In this document: positions 4,570 to 27,187 of the stretch, piece after piece | How the letters are laid out: the number at the start of each line of letters is the position of its first letter | How positions within the stretch are numbered: position 1 is the first letter of the stretch | Virus record (IMG/VR): IMGVR_UViG_3300030102_003605 | Location: 1 to 27,187 of that record | Origin: a virus | Reading direction: 5' to 3' (one strand) | Length of the DNA stretch: 27,187 nucleotides | The notes under the pieces: generated by a model | Told to the model about the DNA's origin: nothing | What the model saw: the letters and a program-made list of their open reading frames with translations, nothing else | The model's database searches: none | Translations under genes and position numbers: made by a program

Positions 4570-5957
4570 GCGTCATCCCTTAGCCTGAGGAATACTACCT
4601 TACCATCCTTACCTTGGTCGAACATGTTGTTAGCCCACTTGTTGAAGTGGTTGTATGCAGTGCCTCTTGTGACTTGATTCTGATTCATGTACGCGGCCAT
4701 AACGTCGGAACGCTTTCTCCAGTTGTCACCTCTGCCACCCAAATCAAATGGGTTGGAAGCATCATGAGCAGCGAGCCACCTAGCCTTCTGGTTAGCCTTC
4801 TCTGCTATCTTGGCACCTATCTCAACTTCTCCCTCTAACCATTCTATGAGGTTGTTGAACAAATCATACAGAATCTCCTTGGCCATATCTACATGTTCGT
4901 CATTGACGACCCATGTGTCTTCCATTAGTGCTATGTGTGTTGATAGAATCACAGTGTAATTCTCCATCGCTGGTATGAACGAGGCAACGACATCACCTAT
5001 ACCCGGTCCTAGACCAGTAAGCAAGGCATAGTAGTCCTCTATTGCTGTGTACATGGCAGGATAGAATGACTCATCCGCGCTTAACACATCGGTCATTGAC
5101 TCTTGTAGCAGTTCTTCCTGCTCATCTCTTGACATGTTGTCCCATTCGACGAACTTCGTCTCTGTGACCTCTAGCACCTTGTTCCTCATTTTCCGCTCTA
5201 GTTCCCTGAAATAACCGGTTATGTCCTCATAACTCACCTTCATCTTAGGAGTCTTCTTGAAAGCAGAGTCAGCCCTTCTCATGCTGACGTTCATTCTCCT
5301 ATCCATACCCCAGTTGGACCAATATAGCAATACTCTCTGGAATATACCCTTGGTGAGAACGTACTCCTTGACACCTGATGGTGGGTAAGTGGTAATCCAC
5401 AGTGACACCAGCGATTCAGTCTCTATCCTGCCCGCTTTAGTGTGCTTGACGAGTATGTTGTTATTGCTACCTACAGGGTTGCAGGCTGACTGTAGGTACA
5501 GAACAGTCTCCTGACTGTGCTTGTTCGGATTGAGGATAATTGAACCCTCGTCGAAGTTCAGTGCCTTACGCCCGTTTAGGAATCCCTCTTTCTCGATGGT
5601 CTCTATATTACCATCACCATCTTTCAATTCCTCGAACCCACCTATCAGACCTGCATCGGTGCCTGTCGTATAGAGGTCGGTCGGGATATCGATATCCTTG
5701 AGTATGTCTCCGATAAACTCCCAAGCGATTGACTTACCAGTCCTGCTTGATTGAATCCAGAAGGTATGCACTCTAGGGTCTAAGTGAGAGGCACCCCAAG
5801 GTATCCTGATGTAGGGTACCGCGAGTTGCCCTTGAATAAAGAAAAAGGACAACATACCGGGTATGTCGTTGTCTATCGATGTATTACCGAAGTGTTCTAG
5901 GTATCCTCTGAATATCGGGTTCTTCTTCACTATAGCGTACTGTTCTACTCTCTTCAT
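4566..5957 (-). CDS. P-loop ATPase, probable replicative helicase (DUF3987/MCM-like)
   Basis: A 463-aa protein with a modified Walker A, QSSRTGKS (residues 69-76; the usual first Gly is Gln), and Walker B ALNFDEGSII (D136, E137). A polar sensor-like segment WITTYPPSG lies near 188-195, and a Phe-Gln-Arg (R208) could be an arginine finger. The C-terminal third has a helical lid-like segment (HVDMAKEILYDLFNNLI) and ends in a winged-helix-like stretch (TRGTAYNHFNKWANNMF), an arrangement seen in DUF3987-type and MCM-type ATPases. It is first in its operon. No SD precedes ATG 5957 and a TATA-like sequence lies ~30 nt upstream, so the message is probably leaderless. No other replicative helicase is visible here, which supports that role by elimination; a packaging or partition ATPase is less likely. 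Confidence 0.6.
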   Translation of the reverse strand: MKRVEQYAIVKKNPIFRGYLEHFGNTSIDNDIPGMLSFFFIQGQLAVPYIRIPWGASHLDPRVHTFWIQSSRTGKSIAWEFIGDILKDIDIPTDLYTTGTDAGLIGGFEELKDGDGNIETIEKEGFLNGRKALNFDEGSIILNPNKHSQETVLYLQSACNPVGSNNNILVKHTKAGRIETESLVSLWITTYPPSGVKEYVLTKGIFQRVLLYWSNWGMDRRMNVSMRRADSAFKKTPKMKVSYEDITGYFRELERKMRNKVLEVTETKFVEWDNMSRDEQEELLQESMTDVLSADESFYPAMYTAIEDYYALLTGLGPGIGDVVASFIPAMENYTVILSTHIALMEDTWVVNDEHVDMAKEILYDLFNNLIEWLEGEVEIGAKIAEKANQKARWLAAHDASNPFDLGGRGDNWRKRSDVMAAYMNQNQVTRGTAYNHFNKWANNMFDQGKDGKVVFLRLRDDA

Positions 5958-5961
5958 ATAC

Positions 5962-5979
5962 TGACCTGATTGCTGGTCA
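5962..5979. promoter_or_regulatory. Inverted repeat, possible operator
   Basis: TGACC and GGTCA arms separated by 8 nt lie between the TATA-like box and the start codon at 5957, exactly where a repressor or a structured initiation region would act. The arms are only 5 bp, so chance is possible. No second copy was noticed. Confidence 0.35.
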
Positions 5980-5980
5980 C

Positions 5981-5996
5981 TATATTATAATTCCTA
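5981..5996 (-). promoter_or_regulatory. TATA-type promoter for the helicase-thermosome operon
   Basis: On the - strand this AT-rich stretch contains TTATAATATA, about 25-35 nt before ATG 5957, the distance expected for an archaeal TATA box of a leaderless gene. It is right behind the ERCC4 gene stop at 6009. It differs from the four-copy element elsewhere, so this operon may be timed differently. Confidence 0.55.
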
Positions 5997-16726: not shown

Positions 16727-16745
16727 CTATTCCCTTTTATAGTCA
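16727..16745 (-). promoter_or_regulatory. Shared promoter element, copy A (replication operon)
   Basis: The 19-nt CTATTCCCTTTTATAGTCA (+ strand) reads TGACTATAAAAGGGAATAG on the - strand. TATAAAA begins at 16741, 29 nt before the clamp loader ATG. The TGA at its start is the stop codon of the preceding gene. CTAT and ATAG also form short inverted arms around AAAAGGGA. Confidence 0.75.
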
Positions 16746-17141
16746 GGCGAGTTTTTCGTACATTTCATCATAACTTGGAGCCCATTCTACGAACTTCTCA
16801 AAGTTGCTTGGAGGGGGATTGTCAAACAACCACCTCATCACTACCAGCCCCTTGCTGTCACTAGGCGTCAGTGAATGCACCTGTTGGACTTTCTCGAATA
16901 GTAATAGGAATTGCTTGACGTCATCTACACGGTGATAGGACTTCTGCAACCTGATACCGTAATTACCTAGAAAGGACTCCACACATCTCCTCTGCTCATC
17001 TGTCCCTGTGCTGAATAGGGAGCGCCACCTTATTCTTCTCTGAAGCCTGACGCTCGATGTGCTGTCTCCCCTGTTCTCGAACCATGAACTGAATCGTACC
17101 TCGGTCAAGGCTATTCCCAGTCCTACTGCATCCTTATCCAT
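16743..17141 (-). CDS. Hypothetical protein, 132 aa
   Basis: ATG 17141 lies one base after the stop of the preceding gene and has AGGTGG a few bases upstream; a GTG 9 nt earlier would overlap that gene. The N-terminal half is basic (VRLQRRIRWRSLFS), the C-terminal half is helical and aromatic and ends EKFVEWAPSYDEMYEKLA. No motif recognised. Its stop codon forms the first bases of the shared promoter element. Co-transcribed with the 436-aa gene. Confidence 0.65.
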   Translation of the reverse strand: MDKDAVGLGIALTEVRFSSWFENRGDSTSSVRLQRRIRWRSLFSTGTDEQRRCVESFLGNYGIRLQKSYHRVDDVKQFLLLFEKVQQVHSLTPSDSKGLVVMRWLFDNPPPSNFEKFVEWAPSYDEMYEKLA

Positions 17142-17142
17142 C

Positions 17143-18453
17143 TCAACCACCTAACAAGTCCACATACTGTGTGACATCCTCGATACCCATGCCATCTCTC
17201 AGTCCCATGTAGGATGGTGATGTCAGCATGTTGGTCTCTCTATCTATGAAGGGAGATGACACGGAGATAACCACACACTGCTCTAGTGGTAGGTCAGCCC
17301 ATTTGGTTTCCCTCTTCTTCTGTAAAACTCCATGGTGATTATCCTTACCAATCAACCTCTCAAGATGGAAGGTGATACTCGTCTGCTCACTCGGTTCATA
17401 CACAGGACAGATACAGGCATCGATGTAATCATCAAGACCATCGAGGGCTTGGAGCCTGAGAGTCATCACACCTGACTCTTGCTTGTATGAGTCAAGCCTC
17501 AGGTTGTGTATGTGCTGGCTTCGAATCAACATGTAGCCTGCTTCCTCTGCTGGGTCAAACGGCTTGGTATTGGGGAATCTCACACTGTGACCCTCATCTA
17601 TCTTCATCAATGCATGCCAAGATGGGATTGGGACAGGCCATGCTATCTCCACATCATTCGCATTCTGATACTTGGCCAGCCTGTCTTGTAGATTCAGTTC
17701 AGGCTCGTCAGGATAGATGGCATCGACTATCGTACCACTCTTCGTTCGCTCCACTATGACATCACCGACCATCGATACTTCCGTGACACCGCTGAGTGGT
17801 ATCTCCTGATAGAGAGCATCGTTGTACTCATCGAGTCCTGTGACCCTCTGTTTGTTCCAAGGGTACAACGCTCTCTTCCTCAAGGCCACTCTAGGACTGG
17901 AGTACCACTCTGATGGATTATAGAGTCTGTCAGGCTCCTCGTACATTGACGCAATCAGGTCCTCATCAGAGAGATACGAGCGACTCGCTCTCACTACCTC
18001 TGCTTTGATATCCAACTGTGCTCCAACCAATGAGAGGAAGCCACCTCTCGTTATGATTGACCTCTCCCTGATTAGTGTGGACCAGAAGAGTCTGGCCTCA
18101 GGCTCACTCAACTGCTTCGTCAGTGGTATGAAAGCGAAGTTCTGTAGTGTAGCACTTCTTAACCTCAAGACTTCATCAAGAGAGAAGTTGGATTGGTTTG
18201 TCTCACTACTCTCCGAGGATAGCAATTGGGATACAGAGTCTGTGATTAGTTCCCTAAGTATCTGTATAGGAGTCTCCAACTCCTGTGCAACTTTCAGTAT
18301 GGCATTGGTCTCCGTCATAGTGTCTGACTTGTCTGGAAAGAGTATGGCATATGCTGACAATGCATCCTCCATTCCCATCTTGAGACGGTGCATCGCACGT
18401 TTGTCACCTAGTCTCCTGCTCTCCCATGCCAGAGCGAACTCAGCGTATTGCAT
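17143..18453 (-). CDS. Unrecognised 436-aa protein
   Basis: Starts at ATG 18453 (a GTG directly before it is in frame). The first ~170 residues are helical with many charged residues; the second half is more beta-like and contains two cysteines (DACICPV). The C-terminal segment SPSYMGLRDGMGIEDVTQ faintly resembles the end of ATP-dependent DNA ligases, but no KxDG nucleotidyl-transfer motif could be found, so no function is assigned. It is the first gene after the divergent region at 18457-18535 and pairs with the 132-aa gene that ends at the replication promoter. Confidence 0.65.
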   Translation of the reverse strand: MQYAEFALAWESRRLGDKRAMHRLKMGMEDALSAYAILFPDKSDTMTETNAILKVAQELETPIQILRELITDSVSQLLSSESSETNQSNFSLDEVLRLRSATLQNFAFIPLTKQLSEPEARLFWSTLIRERSIITRGGFLSLVGAQLDIKAEVVRASRSYLSDEDLIASMYEEPDRLYNPSEWYSSPRVALRKRALYPWNKQRVTGLDEYNDALYQEIPLSGVTEVSMVGDVIVERTKSGTIVDAIYPDEPELNLQDRLAKYQNANDVEIAWPVPIPSWHALMKIDEGHSVRFPNTKPFDPAEEAGYMLIRSQHIHNLRLDSYKQESGVMTLRLQALDGLDDYIDACICPVYEPSEQTSITFHLERLIGKDNHHGVLQKKRETKWADLPLEQCVVISVSSPFIDRETNMLTSPSYMGLRDGMGIEDVTQYVDLLGG

Positions 18454-18514
18454 CACTTATGGGGTCAGGTATCTTGCATTAAGGACTTTTGCCCGCGCTA
18501 GAAAGTGCTAAGAG

Positions 18515-18522
18515 ATTTATAG
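18515..18522. promoter_or_regulatory. TATA-like sequence in the divergent intergenic region
   Basis: ATTTATAG on the + strand (CTATAAAT on the - strand) lies in the only divergent intergenic gap (18457-18535). For the leftward gene it would give a leader of ~40 nt. For the rightward gene it is only ~20 nt from ATG 18536, slightly short for archaeal spacing. It may serve one or both directions. Confidence 0.4.
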
Positions 18523-18535
18523 TGCTCCGGCTATC

Positions 18536-19399
18536 ATGAGCGCAGCGTTTGAGCAAGCGTGGGTTTTTCTCAAGTCTGCTTACATGCCACAGAATCTTGA
18601 GGAGATATTAGGACACGGCTCTTGGAGGGCTGCCGTCGAGGAGCCTGAGGGATTCAGAGTAGGTCAACCTCGCGTCACCAAGGTAGGTGGCCCTTTCAAC
18701 GTAGCAAGTCATGTGTTGGCTGGTAAACTAGCCGAGGAGCATCCTGAGTTAGTTGCTCCTGAAACTCTTGAGTCAGCACCGGGACCAGTGAGCGAACTAC
18801 CAGAGGGATGGGAAGTTGGAGCCGATGGTGTACCAATGAGAATGTACAATCCATATCAGACGTTCCCAGTATTTACAACACAGAGAAGAGGTGAACCTAT
18901 ACAAGGAAGGGGGGTGTTTGATAGAGCCAACAAGGATATGCGAAGGGATATACTCTTTGACTTGTATGAGGATTACCCACTTGCACATGCCATGAAGATA
19001 TTTGATGCTAAGGGAGAAAACTGGGCAGCGATGAATGACAAGGAAGGGTATGTTCCCCCTTCGATGCAAAGTGAACTACAAACAAGAGGAATAGATAAAC
19101 CAGTCTCGTTAATTGACCCAATGTTCGCTGGTCCCAATGAAATCCGCGCTAGGTTCATACCACCTAGATTGATTAATCCAGACGCTGCTCAGATACGCAG
19201 GGTAGCGAGCGAGATACCTACCGATAGCGCTGACATACAGGAGTTCATGGAGCCATGGTATGCCAGTGCCGACCAGTATGAGCAACTCAGCCCTGTCTCA
19301 TATACACAGGATGAGATTCGCAATCTCTTGGACCTACACGCTAAGGATGCCGAGCAGCATCTTTCCGGGCTACCCCGTTCAATGAACCGAATGGTTTAG
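18536..19399 (+). CDS. Lone + strand gene, hypothetical protein with MSAAFEQAWVFLKS N-terminus
   Basis: A 287-aa protein, the only rightward gene in a ~26-kb leftward array. The first 14 residues form an amphipathic helix of a kind I recall at the start of small proteins in marine viral metagenomes. A linker rich in Pro and Glu, then motifs such as LPEGWEVGADGVPMRMYNPYQTFPVF and an acidic helical C-terminus follow. No enzyme motif, membrane segment or cysteine cluster is present. Its last 59 nt overlap, tail to tail, the 113-aa gene on the other strand. Virion or late-gene affiliation is a guess based on its strand, which it shares with the tail genes. Confidence 0.7.
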   Translation: MSAAFEQAWVFLKSAYMPQNLEEILGHGSWRAAVEEPEGFRVGQPRVTKVGGPFNVASHVLAGKLAEEHPELVAPETLESAPGPVSELPEGWEVGADGVPMRMYNPYQTFPVFTTQRRGEPIQGRGVFDRANKDMRRDILFDLYEDYPLAHAMKIFDAKGENWAAMNDKEGYVPPSMQSELQTRGIDKPVSLIDPMFAGPNEIRARFIPPRLINPDAAQIRRVASEIPTDSADIQEFMEPWYASADQYEQLSPVSYTQDEIRNLLDLHAKDAEQHLSGLPRSMNRMV

Positions 19400-19682
19400 G
19401 GTCAAGCACTTCCCAAACCACATGTGAGATACCAGCCTTACCCGGTCTCTTTGGAAAGGTCCCTTTCTTGAGACTCACTGACGTATCATGGTCCCTGTTA
19501 GCCTCTGCTACGTCCTTGAAGAATTGACGACAAATCTCCTCGAACCCGTCTTTGTCGAAGTCACCATCGTAGATTCTCAATATCTCATCCATCTGCATCA
19601 GGATGTCCTTCGCCTGTGTCAGGTCCCATCTCTGGTCCCAGTGCTTCTTCATTCCTTGGTATGTTCTCGTTCTATCTGTCAT
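19341..19682 (-). CDS. Hypothetical protein, 113 aa
   Basis: ATG 19682 was chosen because it overlaps the stop of the tandem zinc-ribbon gene (ATGA); a longer frame would run into that gene. Helical and charged in the first two thirds (MDEILRIYDGDFDKDGFEEICRQFFKDV), followed by a basic stretch (KKGTFPKRPGKAGISHVVW). D-G-D-F-D-K-D-G loosely resembles an EF-hand loop, but the spacing is not convincing. Its 3' end overlaps the + strand gene by 59 nt. Confidence 0.65.
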   Translation of the reverse strand: MTDRTRTYQGMKKHWDQRWDLTQAKDILMQMDEILRIYDGDFDKDGFEEICRQFFKDVAEANRDHDTSVSLKKGTFPKRPGKAGISHVVWEVLDPKPFGSLNGVARKDAARHP

Positions 19683-20299
19683 GAGCATCCCTCGCAGTAC
19701 TTCCTTAGTTTGCCTTTGCCGGTCTGAGTGAACGTCTGTCTGCAAGTACCACAAGCATACGTCCTCACCACTGGTTTGTACTTCCTCTTCTCGTACTCCC
19801 TTGACTTCTCGTTCCTCTTCTTCCTGTAGCACTCAGGGCAGTACTTCCTCACACGGCCTCTGCCTTTGAGCACACCGAGGGACTTGTCACACATCAGACA
19901 CTTGCCTTGGTCTCTCTCGACTGTGACCTTGTTCTTCTGCCTGTACTTCTTGTAGGACTTCTTCCTTCGCTCCTCTCTGCACACACCACAGTAGACTCTA
20001 GTGCCACCCTTGCCAGTCTGCACAATCTGATTGCTGCAAGTCTTGCACTTGTGCTTCCTGACAATCTTCTCCTTGGGCTTCTTCTTGAGATTCCTGTTGG
20101 CGACCTTGCACTCATCAGAGCACAACTGTGGCCTGCTGCCTCTCTTGATTAGGAATGTGAACTCCTTCTCACAGTGCATGCAACACGCTGTGGCTGTCTT
20201 CGGCTTCGCTGGCACAGGCTCCTCTACATGCACAGGCTTTGAAACCTTGTCGCCAAGAAAGGCTGCTGCTAGTTCTTCCTCAGAAATCCCCGACGGCAT
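19679..20299 (-). CDS. Tandem zinc-ribbon protein with four Cys4 units
   Basis: A 206-aa, very basic protein. After an acidic/Pro-rich N-terminus (~37 residues) come four repeated Cys4 units: C40/C43 with C60/C64, C85/C88 with C104/C107, C134/C137 with C154/C157, and C183/C186 with C202/C205. Each has 15-16 residues between the two knuckles, often with a GKG or GRG turn followed by YC-x-x-C, and Lys/Arg-rich linkers separate the units. The regularity points to internal duplication. The architecture suits binding to nucleic acid or several protein partners. ATG 20299 has a full GGAGGT SD 6 nt upstream and overlaps the preceding gene by 20 nt. No known family was recognised. Confidence 0.85.
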   Translation of the reverse strand: MPSGISEEELAAAFLGDKVSKPVHVEEPVPAKPKTATACCMHCEKEFTFLIKRGSRPQLCSDECKVANRNLKKKPKEKIVRKHKCKTCSNQIVQTGKGGTRVYCGVCREERRKKSYKKYRQKNKVTVERDQGKCLMCDKSLGVLKGRGRVRKYCPECYRKKRNEKSREYEKRKYKPVVRTYACGTCRQTFTQTGKGKLRKYCEGCS

Positions 20300-20867
20300 G
20301 CTTGACCTCCTCTTCCTGTTGCAACTTGGTGAAGTCCATCTCAGTCGTTCCTGCTGCTTCTATGGCAAAGGATGTGCAAGTGTCACCTGCTCTCACTGAC
20401 CATGTCTCACCGAGGATGTCACCTAGAGCCGCTGTGATAGCAGCAGCGTACTTGTCATCACCTGACTCCCACTTGCTCTCATCAGCCATCTCCTTAGCGA
20501 TGTCCTGTATCGCCTTCTTCACGACGATGCTGTACTCATCGTCTGGTGCATCCTTGGGCACGAAGTTCCTGATTGCTATCTTGAGCAACCTGCTCAGGAC
20601 CTTCTTGGTCGGTAGTTTGGCAGCCACTCTCTGTCTGACCTGCTTGCACCGCCTGTACCCACGTCCGTTCGTCTTTCCTGTTTCCTTGACCTCAGTGCCT
20701 ATTGTCAATGAAGAGCCTGTCTTCATGTCAATCACTAGCAATTGCGGGTCAGCATAGTAGTCCTCATCAGGGTCATGCATGCTCTTCTCTATCTTAGACA
20801 GCATCATGCCTGCTTTCTTCAGTGCTGTTCCGCTTCCGTCGGTCCAATCCATTTCTTCTATGTTCAT
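20280..20867 (-). CDS. Hypothetical protein, 195 aa
   Basis: First gene after a copy of the shared promoter element (TATAAAA begins 29 nt before ATG 20867). The N-terminal ~70 residues are acidic and mixed; the middle is basic and helical (YRRCKQVRQRVAAKLPTKKVLSRLLKIAIRN), and the rest alternates acidic helices. No catalytic motif seen. Its end contains the GGAGGT SD of the zinc-ribbon gene. It could be a DNA-associated structural or regulatory protein; function unknown. Confidence 0.7.
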   Translation of the reverse strand: MNIEEMDWTDGSGTALKKAGMMLSKIEKSMHDPDEDYYADPQLLVIDMKTGSSLTIGTEVKETGKTNGRGYRRCKQVRQRVAAKLPTKKVLSRLLKIAIRNFVPKDAPDDEYSIVVKKAIQDIAKEMADESKWESGDDKYAAAITAALGDILGETWSVRAGDTCTSFAIEAAGTTEMDFTKLQQEEEVKHAVGDF

Positions 20868-20881
20868 TGTTCTCTCTCCTT

Positions 20882-20900
20882 CTATTCCCTTTTATAGTCA
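20882..20900 (-). promoter_or_regulatory. Shared promoter element, copy B
   Basis: The same 19 nt as at 16727-16745. It is part of a longer 37-nt identity (20871-20907) with copy C at 21651-21687, which also covers the SD-like AAGGAGAGAGA. TATAAAA begins at 20896, 29 nt before ATG 20867. Its TGA is the stop codon of the 90-aa gene. Confidence 0.8.
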
Positions 20901-21170
20901 AGATTGCTTGAAGTCAATCAAGTACAATCCTGCCTCCTCTTCTTCACTATCATCATGCGATGCCCTCAACTTCGCTGCCAGTTCATCTGTCTCTTTCACA
21001 CTAACACCATGCTTCTTGATGAGAGGCATCAAAGTGTTCCTTCTGTACTCTTCCTTCCACATCACCTGTATGCAGTCGTGACACAGTCTACCGTTCTTGG
21101 CAGCCTTCGCGCTCGGCTCTGTGTACTCAGCGCCACAGAGGGTCTCGTCTAGTATACGGAAGTGAATCAT
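20898..21170 (-). CDS. Small protein with Cys triad
   Basis: A 90-aa protein. C12 (TLCGAEY) and C30/C33 (LCHDC) with H31 could hold one metal ion; the N-terminal part resembles host-takeover or accessory zinc proteins of phages in general layout only. The C-terminal half is helical and acidic (SHDDSEEEEAG). Its ATG overlaps the 82-aa gene stop (ATGA) and its stop is built into promoter copy B. Function unknown. Confidence 0.65.
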   Translation of the reverse strand: MIHFRILDETLCGAEYTEPSAKAAKNGRLCHDCIQVMWKEEYRRNTLMPLIKKHGVSVKETDELAAKLRASHDDSEEEEAGLYLIDFKQS

Positions 21171-21415
21171 GTTCCCTTCTCCTTGTACTCAACATGTGAC
21201 TTGGGCAACTTGTGCCTGCGTCTCCCCATCATGTTCTCTATCAATCCAAGGACATTCGCACCAGCCTTGGTGAACCTGTCCTTCGACACATTGTCATCAC
21301 ACATCCGAGACTTCAACCTGTTAAGGTCTATCTCGGTGATTATGTGATTGAGTATCTCGTACTCAACGTGTGTCACGCTCGCCGCTCTCTCTTCTTTGTT
21401 TCCGTTCTTCTTCAT
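21167..21415 (-). CDS. Hypothetical protein, 82 aa
   Basis: Starts at ATG 21415 with GAGGAG 7 nt upstream, inside the end of the 94-aa gene (53-nt overlap in another frame, long for this genome). Basic at both ends, with a helical centre (YEILNHIITEIDLNRLKSRM). A short DNA-binding helix-turn-helix protein is conceivable, but no clear motif was found. Confidence 0.6.
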   Translation of the reverse strand: MKKNGNKEERAASVTHVEYEILNHIITEIDLNRLKSRMCDDNVSKDRFTKAGANVLGLIENMMGRRRHKLPKSHVEYKEKGT

Positions 21416-21647
21416 CTTGCATCTCCTCTATCAGTTGTTGTAAGGCTGGGAGCAGTTCCCTCGCTTGCTCTACGGTCAGCCTAAGCCCGTGTTTTGTCCA
21501 TGTCCCCGGTATCTTCTCTTGGTTGAGTATCCTGATGTCAACCCAGTGTCGCTTGTAGTACTCTATCCCTCTCAGGAAGACCATTCCCTTTCCGTCTCTC
21601 CAGTTGTGCTCCAAGCAGGGGGAGCGCCATGCCACTATGTCATCCAT
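21363..21647 (-). CDS. PC4-like (transcription coactivator p15) domain protein, tentative
   Basis: A 94-aa protein. Residues ~30-76 (YYKRHWVDIRILNQ...GTWTKHGLRLTVEQARELLPAL) match the order of features in the PC4/p15 domain: a strand with WVDIR, a turn, a Thr-Lys-x-Gly-Leu/Ile-x-Leu strand, then a long helix with EQ. PC4 proteins are dimers that bind single-stranded DNA and affect transcription or replication. The C-terminus is a charged helix. ATG 21647 is 29 nt after the TATA start of promoter copy C, making this the first gene of a three-gene unit with the 82- and 90-aa genes. The resemblance is moderate. Confidence 0.55.
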   Translation of the reverse strand: MDDIVAWRSPCLEHNWRDGKGMVFLRGIEYYKRHWVDIRILNQEKIPGTWTKHGLRLTVEQARELLPALQQLIEEMQDEEERKQRRESGERDTR

Positions 21648-21661
21648 TACTCTCTCTCCTT

Positions 21662-21680
21662 CTATTCCCTTTTATAGTCA
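21662..21680 (-). promoter_or_regulatory. Shared promoter element, copy C
   Basis: Identical 19-nt core. TATAAAA begins at 21676, 29 nt before ATG 21647, with AAGGAGAGAGA between. It lies directly downstream of the 37-aa zinc gene. This and copy B share 37 identical nucleotides, which suggests recent duplication or strong constraint. Confidence 0.8.
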
Positions 21681-21690
21681 AGATTGCCTA

Positions 21691-21804
21691 TCACAGCCCC
21701 ACTTTCATGATACAATCGTAGCACCGCTCTCTCTTAGGGTCCCAGACCAAGTTCCGTCTCTTCTTGCAAATCTTACATTGTTGTCCTCTGTATGGGTTAG
21801 CCAT
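21691..21804 (-). CDS. 37-aa zinc-knuckle protein
   Basis: Mini-gene read from ATG 21804, which follows the stop of the preceding gene with no gap (TGAATG). C10-K-I-C13 and C28-Y-D-C31 are separated by a basic stretch (KKRRNLVWDPKRER). It ends 11 nt before promoter copy C. One of the smallest genes here; the clean Cys4 pattern supports it. Function unknown. Confidence 0.7.
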   Translation of the reverse strand: MANPYRGQQCKICKKRRNLVWDPKRERCYDCIMKVGL

Positions 21805-22092
21805 TCACAAACCCCCATTCTTCCATTGTGGGAACTTCTTCACTAGTTTGGCGAAGTGTCCTCTCTTGCCCACGTTGGGACAATGAAATGAGTCAGAGAG
21901 ATGCTTCTTCCCATACATGCTTCGCTGGGTCATGACGTTCCTCTTCACATCCATCTTCGCACCACATGCTCTACAGTACGCCTCGTCAACAGTGCCGGGG
22001 TCTACATGCAGGCAACTAATTCCCTTATGGTACGACTTGGGCTCGTAGGGCTTACGCTCCACTTCAAAGTCTCTAGGCCAAACCTTTCCCAT
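21805..22092 (-). CDS. Small Cys-containing protein
   Basis: A 95-aa protein. ATG 22092 follows the TAA of the previous gene directly, with GGGGGAGGAAGAG upstream; a longer frame would overlap that gene. C40/C43 (YCRACGAK) and C71 with H70 (FHCPN) form a likely zinc site, with C27 and H29 (SCLHVD) also available. The pattern CRxCG then KRN and later HCPN recalls phage proteins of unknown function. Basic C-terminus. Confidence 0.65.
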   Translation of the reverse strand: MGKVWPRDFEVERKPYEPKSYHKGISCLHVDPGTVDEAYCRACGAKMDVKRNVMTQRSMYGKKHLSDSFHCPNVGKRGHFAKLVKKFPQWKNGGL

Positions 22093-22094
22093 GA

Positions 22095-22808
22095 TTACTC
22101 TTCCTCCCCCAGCATGGACACTACCTCGCAGTATGTCCCATACATCCAAGGTGGTACCTTCTCTCCTGTCTCAGGGTCAGTCGTGCCAATGAGTCTGGCA
22201 TTACTGCCCTCGTCTATGGCGCGTATCATCTCGCCCCTGTCCATTGCCTTGAGCAACTCCCCTTTGTTGTTCATGTACTGCATGAATCTGTCATCACCCA
22301 TGAGCAGGTGGTAGTCATCAGGGTCGATTGACAGCACTTCCTCTGTGTTCGGATTGAGGAGTGGATACTCCCACACCTCTACAGTTGTAGTGTCGCCGTT
22401 GTCCAAGAGTACCTCGGTATCTTGAGCGAATCTAGGATACACCGCATCCAAGTTCATGTCAATCAGCAGTGTCCCATCCTTGTCTGCCCAGCCTTGAGCA
22501 ATCCTCCGCTTCATGTCCAATTCCTGCATCTGCGCTTCCATTGGATTGTTCGGCTCAGGCACAATCTCTACCTCGCCATCCTCTATGGTGTACCCCAAGT
22601 CCCATGCAACCGTCTTCATCCTGTCATGATTGCTCCTGCAACCCTCAGTGTCTACCATTCGTAGGAGAGACAGTGTCTTGTCTTCCTTCTTCTGATAGGT
22701 GACGCCTGCATTCTCGGGCATCCATATAGCACCTATCGCCATCGTAGCGAAGTGCTCCTTCATCCATCTTCTTAGTCCTTCATCTGGTTTCCATTCTTCT
22801 TCATTCAT
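22095..22808 (-). CDS. Hypothetical acidic protein, 237 aa
   Basis: ATG 22808 has GGAG 9 nt upstream; ATG 22817 is an alternative. Both overlap the upstream gene. A helical N-terminus is followed by an acidic protein with several short beta-like segments (TLLIDMNLDAVYPRFAQDTEVLL, TTTVEVWEYPLL). One early cysteine, no metal motif, no membrane segment. Ends LGEEE, encoding the SD of the next gene. No family recognised. Confidence 0.7.
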   Translation of the reverse strand: MNEEEWKPDEGLRRWMKEHFATMAIGAIWMPENAGVTYQKKEDKTLSLLRMVDTEGCRSNHDRMKTVAWDLGYTIEDGEVEIVPEPNNPMEAQMQELDMKRRIAQGWADKDGTLLIDMNLDAVYPRFAQDTEVLLDNGDTTTVEVWEYPLLNPNTEEVLSIDPDDYHLLMGDDRFMQYMNNKGELLKAMDRGEMIRAIDEGSNARLIGTTDPETGEKVPPWMYGTYCEVVSMLGEEE

Positions 22809-23097
22809 TTTGTTCATCTCCTTGTTCTATCCTTCTTAGGAATGTATTACTGTTCTTGCACATCATTATCTCACCATTGTCTGTCAACAAACAAGCACAA
22901 CCTTGGCATTCTACTGTACTGTCACGGGGGCAGTACCTACCCCTCGCATCGAACGACGCATATAGAATCTTGCACTCAAGATTTCCATCGTTGAAGTGAA
23001 ACTTGATACTAGCACCGACAATGTCCGCTATCTTGTTGTTGCCCATTGGGATGAAACCATTCTCATCCATCTCATTCACAGAGAACTCGTGCTTCAT
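22801..23097 (-). CDS. Cys-rich small protein
   Basis: A 98-aa protein with six cysteines in the second half: C42, C56, C64, C67, C69 and C80 (YCPRDSTVECQGCACLL...MMC), enough for a zinc or possibly an Fe-S site. N-terminus acidic. Overlaps the 664-aa gene stop by ATGA and the 237-aa gene start by 8 nt. Function unknown. Confidence 0.7.
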   Translation of the reverse strand: MKHEFSVNEMDENGFIPMGNNKIADIVGASIKFHFNDGNLECKILYASFDARGRYCPRDSTVECQGCACLLTDNGEIMMCKNSNTFLRRIEQGDEQNE

Positions 23098-25088
23098 GCT
23101 AGAGCCCCCTTCCTGTAGTCACGTTCCCATATCGACACGACGTTGAATCCCATCTCATTGAGTATCCTCTCCTTCTCCATCTGCGACTCGTACAACTCTT
23201 GGGCCGTCACATCACTGTGTGGATGTGGTGTTGCATCAGGTGCAAAGCACTCAGGATTGCCATGCCAGACATCACCGTTGAACTCGTACGCTGTGTTGGT
23301 CTCCTCACAGTACCCATCGAGCAGGTAGTACCTACCACTGCCCAACTCGACTCTCAGTTCACCCCCGTTCTCCGCATGTTGAATGTCGATGTTATCTTCC
23401 TTGGATATCTTGTTCAGCCAGTTGATGGCCATCCTCGAGTAATTGCTCGGCTCCCTGCCTAGGGAGTAGGTCACATCAGGTGGCACCTTGCCAGTCCAGT
23501 GCCCTCTCCTCTCCTTGATGATGCTGTACCTGCTCTTGTCATCAGGACCCACTGGGTCATAGATGGCGTACTTGTCGTAATCCTTGATGTAGAACCTGCA
23601 CAGGTGTGGCCTGACATACCTCGCAGCAGTGTTGCCCTTGCGCTTCTTACCACCGGGGTAGACGTACTGCACCCTGTCAGTGCCCCACACCAACTTCCTC
23701 TCCACTCTCATCTTAGGCACTCTGTTTCTCAATGCCTTCCTCACAGTCTTGGGGTCGATGCCTGTAGATACCTTGACGGTCTTCAACGAGCCTCTCATCT
23801 CAGGTGAGTTGAGAGCGCATATCAGTTTGGTAGCCAACTCCAGTTGACCCGGTAGTTCGTAGTCGTACTTCGTAGTCCCATCAGTCGGGTCAAGGTACAT
23901 GCCTACTGACTCCGCTGTGAGATAGTTCTCGAAGTCACGGGCGGCTCCTTCGAGTCGAGAATGCTCGAGCCCCATGGTCTCAAACACCTCTCTGAACTCA
24001 GCCTTCTTCCTTACCCTCTCTCTCGTCTTGCCGAACTTGAACATCTTCTGTATCTCCTTGGTTGTGATTCTGTCTGGTAGCGCAACCACATCCATGGTCT
24101 TCACGCTAGTGCCCAGTACTCCCCCTTGTGATGCATTGCCGATGGGCTCGTGAGCCATGCACAGCATGTCGTTCTCAACCCATAGGCTCAACGCAATCTC
24201 ATCGTCGTACTTGTCTAGGTGCTTGAATAGGAATCTAGTGCCCTTCTCCAAGTAGGACGACGCAAGGAACAACTCCTTCGGTATGGATAGTTGCGCATTG
24301 CTCACCCTCGATAGTATTGACTTCCTGACCTCTATCGTCTCTAACTTCTCCTTGAAGCGTTTGAATCTCCTACCTAGATGCATCAGGAACAACTGTGATG
24401 TCTGTGGTGAGTACAGTGTGCCGAAGTGATTGTCATACCGCGGCATGTTTGCCTCAGCATGGCTCAGTACTACTCTCCTTTGGGCTTCCGACGTCAGTGT
24501 CATCGCTCCATAGCCTTCGATGAGCCCCTCGGGTGTGACTCTGCAAAGTCCGAACATGCCACTGGATTGCAGTACCAACCATGCGGGAGCCTTGTTGTTC
24601 ATGACGCCGACTGTTTTGAGAGGCTCTCCATTCTCCTCTAGTGCCAAGGACAACGAGTCATCCAACATGTTGGTTTGCATCACGAAGGCACTTTGTGCCA
24701 CATCGACTATGAAGTCATCATGACTCACGATGTCACCATGTGCTGATTCGATTGCTTTGAAGAAGGAGTCTATGTGTATGTACACCGTCGTCGTATCGAA
24801 CTCTCTGTGATACTCATTAATCTCACTAGCGTTAGTACCCCACTGCCTTATGACTTCGCTATCGATAATCATACCAGTCAGGTCAAGCATGGGTGACTCT
24901 CTCAGATGCGAGTAGGCCACATAGTCACAACCAGTCTTGGCTATGAACGACTTCAGGTTCATCCTCGACGTGTGGTTCTCAGCGAACAAAGTATCAGTGG
25001 GATACATGTAGGCATCAATAGCATCGATGTTGCTCTTCAACAGACGCCTGTAGTCCTCTGGGAGTCGTACTTGTCGTGCGATTATCAT
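23094..25088 (-). CDS. Large protein with C-terminal Vsr/PD-(D/E)XK-like nuclease domain
   Basis: A 664-aa protein, the largest of the accessory region. About residues 580-660 form a recognisable restriction-endonuclease-like domain: YYLLDGYCEETNTAYEFNG (D591, E602), DVWHGNPECF (W608-H609-G610), then MEKERILNEMGFNVVSIWE (K639, E655). This layout, with WHG and a terminal IWE, is typical of Vsr-like endonuclease domains in viral and mobile-element proteins. The first ~570 residues are unrecognised: mixed alpha/beta with basic stretches (RKALRNRVPKMRVERK, GGKKRKG) that could bind DNA. It may be a single DNA-processing enzyme with an unknown N-terminal activity. Starts at ATG 25088, joined by ATGA to the 38-aa gene. 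Confidence 0.75.
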   Translation of the reverse strand: MIIARQVRLPEDYRRLLKSNIDAIDAYMYPTDTLFAENHTSRMNLKSFIAKTGCDYVAYSHLRESPMLDLTGMIIDSEVIRQWGTNASEINEYHREFDTTTVYIHIDSFFKAIESAHGDIVSHDDFIVDVAQSAFVMQTNMLDDSLSLALEENGEPLKTVGVMNNKAPAWLVLQSSGMFGLCRVTPEGLIEGYGAMTLTSEAQRRVVLSHAEANMPRYDNHFGTLYSPQTSQLFLMHLGRRFKRFKEKLETIEVRKSILSRVSNAQLSIPKELFLASSYLEKGTRFLFKHLDKYDDEIALSLWVENDMLCMAHEPIGNASQGGVLGTSVKTMDVVALPDRITTKEIQKMFKFGKTRERVRKKAEFREVFETMGLEHSRLEGAARDFENYLTAESVGMYLDPTDGTTKYDYELPGQLELATKLICALNSPEMRGSLKTVKVSTGIDPKTVRKALRNRVPKMRVERKLVWGTDRVQYVYPGGKKRKGNTAARYVRPHLCRFYIKDYDKYAIYDPVGPDDKSRYSIIKERRGHWTGKVPPDVTYSLGREPSNYSRMAINWLNKISKEDNIDIQHAENGGELRVELGSGRYYLLDGYCEETNTAYEFNGDVWHGNPECFAPDATPHPHSDVTAQELYESQMEKERILNEMGFNVVSIWERDYRKGALA

Positions 25089-25201
25089 TCAATCATCTCA
25101 CTAGCAATCATGCCAATCAGCATCTTGTTCTGCATCTCCAGCAGTTCGATTATCCTGTCCAGTTTTCTCTCGACTGCTCTCTCATGCCTCTCGTACGCCA
25201 T
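25085..25201 (-). CDS. 38-aa coiled-coil peptide
   Basis: Read from ATG 25201, which follows the preceding stop directly (TGAATG) with GGAGG just upstream, and ends with ATGA at the start of the 664-aa gene. The sequence (ERAVERKLDRIIELLEMQNK) is one amphipathic helix with heptad leucines/isoleucines and a Met-rich hydrophobic tail. Possibly an oligomerisation partner or a short membrane-associating peptide. No family. Confidence 0.6.
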   Translation of the reverse strand: MAYERHERAVERKLDRIIELLEMQNKMLIGMIASEMIE

Positions 25202-25516
25202 TCACTCTTCCTCCGTGAGTCTGTCCTCTAGTTCCATAAGTTCCTTCTCCTTCGCTGTTATTTGCTTCTCTAGGTCTTCATGGGCACTCCATATACACGC
25301 TCGACCATATGTCTGTAGGTCTAGGCCGAACTCACGAGAGACTTCTTCAACATCGTCTTGATGGAAAGCGGCCTCTTGCAGTTTGTTCTTACATTGACGC
25401 ATATATGTTAGGTATGCATCCATCTCTCTGAAAGGCGCCCATCTCTTCACCTTTCTTTCTTGTGCCTCGTACTCTTTCAGTCTCTCCAATTTCTCTTCTA
25501 TCTCTGCTTCGTTCAT
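25202..25516 (-). CDS. Coiled-coil protein, 104 aa
   Basis: Highly charged and helical at both ends (IEEKLERLKEYEAQERKVKRW; DLEKQITAKEKELMELEDRL) with a middle segment containing two Cys (RQCKNKL, GRACIW). ATG 25516 has GGAGG 7 nt upstream and overlaps the preceding stop (ATGA). Function unknown; probably structural or adaptor. Confidence 0.7.
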   Translation of the reverse strand: MNEAEIEEKLERLKEYEAQERKVKRWAPFREMDAYLTYMRQCKNKLQEAAFHQDDVEEVSREFGLDLQTYGRACIWSAHEDLEKQITAKEKELMELEDRLTEEE

Positions 25517-25908
25517 TCCTCTTCCTCCTCACTGGCGAAGGGCATGCCCTCCTTCTTCTCAATCAAGTTGGATGCCCTCGCCCACTTGAGCAGGGATGAC
25601 ACACCGCTTGACAGCGGGTGCATGTCCAACACCGCACCACCTGAATGGTTGCATGGCGAGCCGGGTATGAACATCTGACAAACTTGGTTGTCGTACTCAT
25701 AGATAGTGAACGGCGTGTACAGTAGTTCCTGACTCGCCGCTGACTTGAGCACTGGTTCCTGCTCCCTCAGCCACATACTCACATTCATGTCTGTGCGTAT
25801 CTTCACACAGTGGCCGTAGCCCCTGTTGTCCTCGACGTCTGAGACGCCTTGGATGTGCATTCTTCCTTCATCATAATCACATTTCACTTGCATTCTTGTT
25901 TCCATCAT
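25513..25908 (-). CDS. Hypothetical protein, 131 aa
   Basis: ATG 25908 overlaps the phosphatase stop (ATGA) with GGAG 8 nt before it; a second ATG follows immediately. Four cysteines and several histidines are dispersed (VKCDYDEG, GHCVKIR, NQVCQMF, SPCNHSGG), not a clean zinc motif. The beta-like middle (LLYTPFTIYEYDNQVCQMF) and acidic tail (SEEEEE, encoding an SD) are notable. No family recognised. Confidence 0.65.
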   Translation of the reverse strand: MMETRMQVKCDYDEGRMHIQGVSDVEDNRGYGHCVKIRTDMNVSMWLREQEPVLKSAASQELLYTPFTIYEYDNQVCQMFIPGSPCNHSGGAVLDMHPLSSGVSSLLKWARASNLIEKKEGMPFASEEEEE

Positions 25909-27047
25909 TCTTCACTCTCCTTCTTTCTATTCCCTTTTATAGTCAAGGTTTCACTCGCAGTACCCTCACGGTACGATTTTACATCTCTCTTCCATATGTC
26001 GCTCCAGAGCATCACTTCCATCTCCCCCTCATCGAACTCAAGGAACGCTGGGTGATACCATCGCCCATTGACCTTGACTCTCAAGTCGTCGTTAATCTCC
26101 AGTTCAGCGAACGTGGCCATCGCCAACTTGGATGTCTGCACATCGTGCATCTCCAATGGATGGAACTTCTCCCCCATCACTGCACAGAACTGGTCGCGGA
26201 AGTCATTGATGTCACCATCAACTCTAGTCCAATCACCCTCGGGATAGGGGTCATGGCCTTCCGGCATCCATACAGTCTGGTCATCCTTCAAGCACAGCAT
26301 GGCCTTCCATCCCTTCTGTATCTCACCGAAGTGCTTCTTAGGAGCAAACTCACTCAGTGTCTGTTGCCCCTTCTTGCCCTTCTTGCCCTTCCTCGGCTGC
26401 CCTCGCCCACTTGAGTTCTTCTTGGGCTTGGGCTTCTCCAATGCCTTGGCAATCTCATCATCGCTGACTTGGAAGTTGTCCCATGCCGAGTCGAAGCCAC
26501 GACTCACGATGACGGACTCACCCTCAGGCAAGTCACACACCTCAGCGATGTACTTCTGCTGGGACTTGGACTCGACGCAGTGCTCGCACATCCTCCTCCT
26601 AACCTCCATGATAAGGTCAGCAGTGTCGGACCAACTCCTCCTGTCCTCAGGTGTCAGGTAGTGCAACAGTATGGCCAACTGTACACCAGTCCTACCATGA
26701 CCGCCCATGCACTGGCATGAGACTGTCTTGATGCCCTTCTCCCTGATGTCATCAACGAGAGCCAGCCAGAACTCCTTGCCCAAGTTGTTGGGTATGCTGA
26801 AGTCAGGCCAGTCAATCTCGATGAGTATGGGTACCTGCTGGGCGATGAACGCATTGGAGCATTTCCAACCATCAGGTATGATGTCGTTGTAGTGCACCGA
26901 GCGCATCACGCCTCTCGGTCCCAGTGCCAAGTCAGGCACTTCGGCCATGGTATGCCAGCCGCCGTCTCTGTTAGTGCCACCGCCGTAGACGGTCACACCT
27001 TGCTCTTCAATCACTGTTATATTTCCTGTATGACAATTTCCTTTCAT
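25905..27047 (-). CDS. Cysteine phosphatase (PTP/DSP-like) with basic linker, PIP-like motif and unknown C-terminal domain
   Basis: A 380-aa protein starting at ATG 27047 (GGAGG 7 nt upstream, ATGA overlap); an upstream in-frame ATG would overlap the previous gene. Phosphatase features: general-acid loop DWPDFSIP (D82) and P-loop SCQCMGGHGRTG, with the C-x5-R signature at C113 and R119 followed by TG. These are hallmarks of protein tyrosine/dual-specificity phosphatases, a superfamily that also includes RNA 5'-triphosphatases. About residues 205-227 form a Lys/Gly-rich linker (RKGKKGKKG), then QQTLSEFA (228-235), which fits a clamp-binding motif. The last ~145 residues are an unrecognised mixed domain ending in the promoter-coded tail. 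Substrate, protein or nucleic acid, cannot be told from sequence. Confidence 0.8.
   Translation of the reverse strand: MKGNCHTGNITVIEEQGVTVYGGGTNRDGGWHTMAEVPDLALGPRGVMRSVHYNDIIPDGWKCSNAFIAQQVPILIEIDWPDFSIPNNLGKEFWLALVDDIREKGIKTVSCQCMGGHGRTGVQLAILLHYLTPEDRRSWSDTADLIMEVRRRMCEHCVESKSQQKYIAEVCDLPEGESVIVSRGFDSAWDNFQVSDDEIAKALEKPKPKKNSSGRGQPRKGKKGKKGQQTLSEFAPKKHFGEIQKGWKAMLCLKDDQTVWMPEGHDPYPEGDWTRVDGDINDFRDQFCAVMGEKFHPLEMHDVQTSKLAMATFAELEINDDLRVKVNGRWYHPAFLEFDEGEMEVMLWSDIWKRDVKSYREGTASETLTIKGNRKKESEE
25927..25945 (-). promoter_or_regulatory. Shared promoter element, copy D, inside a coding region
   Basis: The same 19-nt core, but here it lies within the last codons of the phosphatase gene and is translated as LTIKGNR. 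TATAAAA begins at 25941, 33 nt before ATG 25908. It can drive the 131-aa gene and the genes down to 21691. The retention of the sequence inside a gene suggests selection for the DNA element. Confidence 0.7.
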
Positions 27048-27187
27048 TCCTCTTCCTCCTTTGATATTGCGATAATCGCATCTGTCCAATCCTTGTTGTC
27101 CCCCATCTGGTTCTTCACGAACTTAGTCAGGAGCCCACTCAGCATTGGATACATTGGGTCTTTCATCTTCAATCCATGCCACGCCTC
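27044..27187 (-). CDS. C-terminal fragment of an unidentified gene, cut by the window edge
   Basis: The frame is open from the right end of the window and gives 47 residues, ending in ISKEEEE with a stop that overlaps the phosphatase ATG (ATGA). The Glu run is encoded by GGAGGAAGAGGAA, which contains the SD for the phosphatase gene. The visible part is helical (MLSGLLTKFVKNQM). Too little to identify. Confidence 0.65.
   Translation of the reverse strand, partial: EAWHGLKMKDPMYPMLSGLLTKFVKNQMGDNKDWTDAIIAISKEEEE

Follow-up and report, generated by a model that had tools for sequence, protein, structure and literature searches.

A putative core promoter element with lineage-specific letters is repeated at replication and accessory genes of magroviruses

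The stretch of DNA analysed here (the window) is the 27.2-kb record of a magrovirus-like fragment, the host group of which are the Poseidoniales (Marine Group II) archaea. Poseidoniales, the hosts of magroviruses, rank among the most abundant archaea in surface ocean waters; to our knowledge, no magrovirus is available in culture, and little is therefore known of the timing of magrovirus gene expression. Nearly all genes of the window are carried by the minus strand. They include those for a family-B DNA polymerase (PolB), an RFC-type clamp loader AAA+ protein and a group II chaperonin, whereas the names PCNA, RadA, primase and helicase were read from the sequences and from the gene order, with a PHROG match for the primase only; the order of the genes in these four positions is kept in the relatives. 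The relatives are magrovirus-like contigs, and PolB proteins 42–98% identical to that of the window were found in 25 IMG/VR loci. A chaperonin 60% identical to that of the window is also present on NZMJ01000138.1 (L210), a contig that was binned as Maricaulis sp. and is probably a mis-binned magrovirus contig. The 394-aa protein encoded at 25905–27089 of the window contains the motif CMGGHGRTG, by eye a phosphatase-like P-loop, and its PHROGs match is labelled thymidylate synthase. The lone plus-strand gene (18536–19399) is preceded by the short divergent intergenic stretch AGCACTATAAATCTCTTAGCAC (18456–18536), a candidate two-way promoter.

Four exact copies of the 19-nt sequence TGACTATAAAAGGGAATAG are located on the minus strand of the window, as stated in the original prediction (Table 1), compared with a mean of 0.02 copies, and never four, in dinucleotide shuffles; no further match with up to three mismatches was found in the window. 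The genes that follow are those of the clamp loader and of a 195-, a 94- and a 131-aa protein, in agreement with the clamp loader operon and the three accessory units that the element had been said to head. The predicted distances between TATA and ATG were reproduced as well when measured from the first T of TATA on the coding (minus) strand, but the idea of a fixed spacing did not hold, because the distances range from 26 to 46 nt in G002, a relative that shares the element. An AAGGAG (SD) had been noted between the element and the ATG. It is present at copies 2, 3 and 4, where it adjoins the element directly or nearly so, but not at the clamp-loader copy, which possesses only an AAGGAT directly against the ATG and thus no usable SD. 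The TGA within the element doubles as the stop codon of the upstream gene at copies 1 and 2; at copy 4 it has no such role, and termination alone therefore does not account for its retention.

Table 1. Copies of the repeated element in the window, the genes that they precede and the different promoter of the helicase-position gene
Feature	Position in the window	Strand	Remarks
Element copy 1	16727..16745	-	before the clamp loader gene; TATA-to-ATG 29 nt; no usable SD
Clamp loader, RFC small-subunit type, 315 aa	15765..16712	-	driven gene; Pfam AAA and DNA_pol3_delta2
Element copy 2	20882..20900	-	before the gene of the 195-aa WTDG protein; TATA-to-ATG 29 nt
AAGGAG (SD)	20876..20881	-	begins 15 nt after the TATA start of copy 2
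195-aa WTDG-family protein	20280..20867	-	driven gene
Element copy 3	21662..21680	-	before the gene of the 94-aa protein; TATA-to-ATG 29 nt
AAGGAG (SD)	21656..21661	-	begins 15 nt after the TATA start of copy 3
94-aa protein	21363..21647	-	driven gene
Element copy 4	25927..25945	-	before the gene of the 131-aa protein; TATA-to-ATG 33 nt
AAGGAG (SD)	25917..25922	-	downstream of copy 4
131-aa protein	25513..25908	-	driven gene
Different promoter of the helicase-position gene (at 5957)	5958..5989	-	TATAATATA, then palindrome TGACC-N8-GGTCA (5962–5979)

When 2.9 million viral contigs were scanned, only two other records, both close relatives of the window, contained the 19-mer in its exact form. 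Counting sites with one mismatch, G001 (81 kb) has three copies, one of them with a mismatch, and G002 (92 kb) has seven, two of them with a mismatch; in each record, the copies share a single orientation and lie within about 12 kb. At the clamp-loader promoter, the element is letter-identical between the window and G001, whereas the spacers, ttgcgctgaaggat and ccgttcagtgcgt, respectively, are unrelated in sequence and nearly keep their length (14 and 13 nt). As a family-wide motif, the exact 19-mer was discarded: it had no match with up to three mismatches in 23 PolB relatives, and the search was therefore turned to lineage-specific variants. Most relatives with a covered clamp-loader region turned out to possess a repeated sequence of their own, with the same build and in the same kind of place, namely several same-strand copies at gene starts of one 15–25 nt sequence that consists of an upstream box, a TATA-like box and 8–12 nt downstream of it. 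Such variants are TTGACTATATAAACCGAGATTGAAT in G010 (11 copies), TTGACTACTTAAACAAAGAATGAAA in G014 (12 copies, the highest number per virus, with TACTTAAA as the TATA box in all of them), TTTGGTATTTAAACGAAGATAGTA in G016 and TTGACTATATAAACTGGAAT in G015 (nine copies each) and TTTCCGATATAAAGGAACAAGAGAGGA in G026 (four copies).

In total, 86 sites belonging to 13 variants were identified in 15 magrovirus contigs, with the same architecture at orthologous genes. The search of related genomes that had been suggested as a check of the original prediction thus found conservation, and the private letters of each lineage, seen across the 13 variants, support its proposal of a virus-specific signal beyond the TATA box. 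The element does not have one fixed sequence in these viruses; its letters form a code that is specific to each lineage and is altered at all copies in concert. Among the relatives, the three largest (102–116 kb) have every copy on one strand and within ~40 kb on the replication side, and no copies were found in the rest of these records that was searched; this arrangement would fit the timing class suggested earlier. In G004, a close relative of G003, the covered part of the record contains no copy, which counts against the explanation favored below.

The distance from the TATA box to the ATG of the clamp loader gene is 28–30 nt in 14 of 14 viruses, exactly 28 nt in 12 of them, and an SD accompanies this promoter in three of the 14. 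When all sites were considered, 39 had distances of 26–30 nt (17 with an SD) and 38 had distances of 33–47 nt (33 with an SD), with no site at 31–32 nt; seven further sites, mostly of the helicase gene and all with an SD, were more than 100 nt away. These classes are expected if transcription starts ~28 nt after the TATA start, leaderless at the ATG in the first class and with SD-containing leaders at larger distances. The constant position of a TATA-like box at the clamp loader gene supports the archaeal-type promoter that had been proposed, and the spacing points to a predicted start at or near the ATG, as also proposed. The 33–37 nt class counts against this model, since its SD begins 19–26 nt after the TATA start and hence no later than the RNA is expected to start. 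In window copies 2 and 3, the SD lies upstream of an RNA started at the ATG and could consequently serve only read-through RNA, which would fit the suggested coexistence of leaderless and read-through transcripts.

At the helicase operon, the claim of a different TATA sequence is correct for the window (Table 1) and fails for most other lineages, in which the helicase-position gene has the virus's own element ~120–126 nt upstream of its ATG. The palindrome of the window sits between the TATA and the ATG of this gene; similar palindromes are present at the helicase-position gene in L029, L030, L032, L035, G026 and G027, and other lineages have the repeated element instead. The helicase leader of ~95 nt (L037:16290–16424 and orthologs) contains the conserved inverted repeats TCTATAC...GTATAGA and TTCC...GGAA. 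A conserved hairpin in this leader was rejected, because only one of the 13 consensus pairs showed a compensatory change. Helicase-centred loci, with a 10-kb flank that stops short of the clamp loader, added no further elements.

We then compared promoters within and between viruses. Non-homologous genes of one virus have identities of 0.75–1.00 at positions −5 to +18 relative to TATA, falling to 0.3–0.5 outside this segment; orthologous genes of different lineages agree far less within it. At positions +8 to +15, identity is 0.91 within a virus, a value inflated because the sites were found by similarity, versus 0.46 for the orthologous promoters of other lineages. As the sites had partly been chosen by similarity, the comparison was redone on promoters taken gene by gene: the longest string common to two different genes was on average 19–23 nt within a virus versus 8–11 nt between viruses, and the within-virus sharing was reached in 2/5040, 1/720, 2/720 and 1/720 permutations of these gene-chosen promoters. 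The window and G001 have TATAAAAGGGAATAG (with one mismatch in one G001 copy) where G003, the PolB of which is 89% identical to that of the window, has TATTTAAACGAATAG, at both the clamp-loader and the WTDG-gene promoters. Between G026 and G027, the two letters just before ATATAAAG change from CG to TC at every one of the four orthologous sites, the surroundings of which are 93–97% identical, and the clamp loaders of the two viruses are 100% identical. Private, exact letters that change at all copies together suggest that one factor reads all copies.

We therefore favor, with a probability of about 0.78, a regulon of the replication phase, the core promoter of which is extended and virus-specific and is read by one co-evolving trans-factor. 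The element would be the core of the promoter class that turns on the magrovirus replication and accessory genes. Its TATA region would be bound by host TBP and TFB, and host RNA polymerase would start ~28 nt downstream, resulting in a leaderless mRNA for the clamp loader and in short-leader mRNAs at sites with distances of at least 33 nt. The private letters downstream of TATA (GGGAATAG, CCGAGATTGAAT and others) and upstream of it (TTGAC, TTTGG, TTTCCG or TTCCTC) would be read by one sequence-specific and probably virus-encoded trans-factor that makes the set a timed regulon, and a change in this factor would force all copies to change. A point against the model is that the letters directly upstream of TATA do not resemble a purine-rich BRE. 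The SDs located upstream of the expected start would serve read-through RNA from the upstream genes.

Alternatively, the private letters might be read by basal factors of the host, for example a TFB variant, so that the element would follow the host species and the concerted change would reflect a host switch. Two TFBs are encoded in each Poseidoniales genome, and the G026/G027 change adjoins the TATA box on its upstream side, which is the position read by TFB. The promoters of the host group nevertheless make this explanation unlikely. They were studied in an MG-II chromosome (800 kb, L292–L331) and three other Poseidoniales genomes, which replaced an earlier set of 77 chaperonin-centred loci with too few distinct genes. 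In the MG-II chromosome, the box at this distance is mostly TT[CG]AA[AG], 5.6-fold enriched at −32 to −27, a lead rather than a host promoter study because the host start codons are longest-frame guesses; TATA boxes are rare but present, and the three other genomes show the same tendency more weakly (2.5–3.7 fold). The host box thus has other letters at the same distance, so that the viral promoters take the host spacing but not the usual host box, and no exact match to the magroviral core TTGACTATATAAAC was found in six host genomes (the MG-II chromosome and five others). Furthermore, we know of no TFB–BRE contacts in known archaea with letters 8–18 nt downstream of TATA.

The copies could also be kept alike by gene conversion or by the spreading of promoter-plus-SD cassettes, with the TATA box read by the host and no special factor involved. 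Window copies 2 and 3 have 36 nt in common, the SD included, as would be the case for a copied cassette, and the gene content around the element is partly accessory. However, the shared stretch ends alike at most copies, stopping at about −5 and +18, the driven genes of a virus are not homologous to each other, and the element is found at the same genes in many lineages; to alter two letters at four sites whose flanks have diverged, conversion tracts would, in addition, have to be shorter than those of usual recombination, and we regard this scenario as quite improbable. That the element acts in the RNA, or as a replication or packaging site, could be suggested by its frequent position next to an SD and, for two copies of the window, next to the upstream stop codon. 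This reading is very hard to sustain, however, since the element retains a TATA-like A/T core in all 13 variants despite their different letters, keeps its constant distance at the clamp loader gene without an SD, and is spread over ~40 kb at gene starts instead of being clustered.

With regard to the trans-factor of the favored replication-phase regulon, neither a TBP or TFB above the cut-off nor an RHH_1 domain (PF01402), a common repressor fold of archaeal viruses, was found in nine virus records; a search of nine records for PF00940 (single-subunit RNA polymerase) gave no match, but no control matched either. Starting from a weak TFIIB-repeat signal in G026, we identified a family of 94–125 aa proteins that is present in most magroviruses outside the clade of the window (among them L036:2547–2831, L042:3169–3453, L041:2629–2919, L049:3205–3525, L032:3698–3994, L035:3336–3686 and, on the minus strand, L195:771–1148). 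In most of these viruses, the gene follows element-headed genes and is itself directly followed by that of the ortholog of the 437-aa protein of the window. The protein stays below the cut-off of the Pfam TFIIB repeat (18.7 versus 23.6 bits), three of the 11 members matching the repeat at all, and is therefore not called a TFB. When the profile of the family was compared with the PDB, TFIIB, TFB, TFIIIB and cyclin-type chains and one designed protein were matched, with a best E of only 0.035, and alignment to host TFB gave a P of 6e-4 and a probability of 28.6%, compared with 0.1–1.6% for three unrelated control families. In the window, G001, G002, G003 and G004, the protein was not found by profile, so it is not a general answer unless that clade replaced it. 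This TFB-like viral protein may thus be taken as a lead for the trans-factor in most lineages, not in the clade of the window.

A bolder version, which we consider doubtful at present, is that each lineage combines its private promoter code with its own variant initiation factor, in most lineages the small single-repeat TFIIB-like viral protein, whose gene lies in the early region immediately before the clamp-loader cluster. If true, factor and promoters would co-evolve and redirect a TTSAAR-using host to the viral replication genes, and co-infecting viruses would be insulated from each other. Near the TFB-like gene of G026, there are also genes for a PC4-like protein (L195:3033–3317, PF02229, E 5e-5, just under the cut-off) and an RPAB4-like zinc ribbon (L195:1145–1492, minus strand, E 0.005).

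The 206-aa protein encoded at 19679–20299 of the window contains four CxxC hairpin modules and is conserved across magroviruses; its predicted model has a pLDDT of 84 and no PDB match, and it is possibly a nucleic-acid-binding protein. As the reading factor it is not supported: its divergence does not track the element (63% for the window versus G001, which have the same element, and 66% versus G003, which has a different one), and no homolog was found in G026/G027. The predicted model of the 195-aa WTDG protein, another candidate, was too poor to use (pLDDT 42). The proteins most divergent between G026 and G027 are pyrimidine-dimer glycosylase-like and tyrosine-phosphatase-like and were dismissed as not being regulators.

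This organization resembles the class I intergenic repeats of the halovirus HF2 (Haloferacalesvirus), which are proven promoters with TATA at −26, one of them driving the PolB transcript, and for which sequence-specific viral factors have been proposed (PMC8707807). The PolB proteins of HF2 and magroviruses are related, as is the architecture of the repeats: in both cases, virus-specific TATA repeats occur in multiple copies in the early-middle or replication part of the genome of an archaeal tailed virus, and the several same-strand copies at gene starts in the replication region, typical of HF2, were found in magroviruses too. In contrast, the HF2 repeats are 58 bp long, have other motifs and are of proven activity; the HF2 sequence is reported to be conserved across the genus, whereas the magrovirus letters, including those of the TATA box, are rewritten between relatives; and the magrovirus spacing is mostly leaderless. 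On reading the sequences, the HF2 beta core TCTTTAAGTC (PMC8707807) is absent from all 13 magrovirus variants.

In SIRV2 and other Sulfolobales viruses, the regulatory sequences of early genes have a common core with flanks that are private to each virus and conserved within a genome, and different regulators were inferred for different viruses (PMC11065993). One regulatory sequence per genome with flanks differing between viruses is likewise found in magroviruses; the differences are that the Sulfolobales sequences belong to anti-defence genes and have a purine-rich BRE and, in some cases, an Aca8 regulator, whereas those of magroviruses belong to replication genes and lack the purine-rich BRE. 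A GTC motif downstream of TATA in SIRV1 and SIRV2 (Kessler 2004, as cited in PMC5569661) is, according to that source, similarly a virus-specific element common to most viral promoters, but comprises three letters only, compared with 8–12 private letters in magroviruses. Given the comparable HF2 repeats and SIRV2 early promoters, the magrovirus element belongs with these systems, in a different viral order. New here are the replication genes as targets, the rewriting per lineage that includes the TATA letters, and the near-identical pairs that catch the change. The open papers searched do not mention magrovirus promoters; Philosof 2017 and Prabhu 2025 lay outside this search, and a prior mention is possible.

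Because the promoter code is the same throughout a virus but is rewritten from one close relative to another, it allows a replication regulon to be defined from sequence alone. The code predicts transcript starts that are testable in existing marine metatranscriptomes and points to a co-evolving regulator, and the clean two-letter switch at four sites in the G026/G027 pair represents a natural experiment on the co-evolution of archaeal promoters and factors. Outside the replication half, another conserved upstream sequence, around GCATAATTAAA(A)G and GCGTAATTCAAATAG in G016, precedes a gene for a 114–126 aa protein in G001 (L024), G002 (L021), G010 (L176), G014 (L184) and G016 (L191) and is a possible late promoter.
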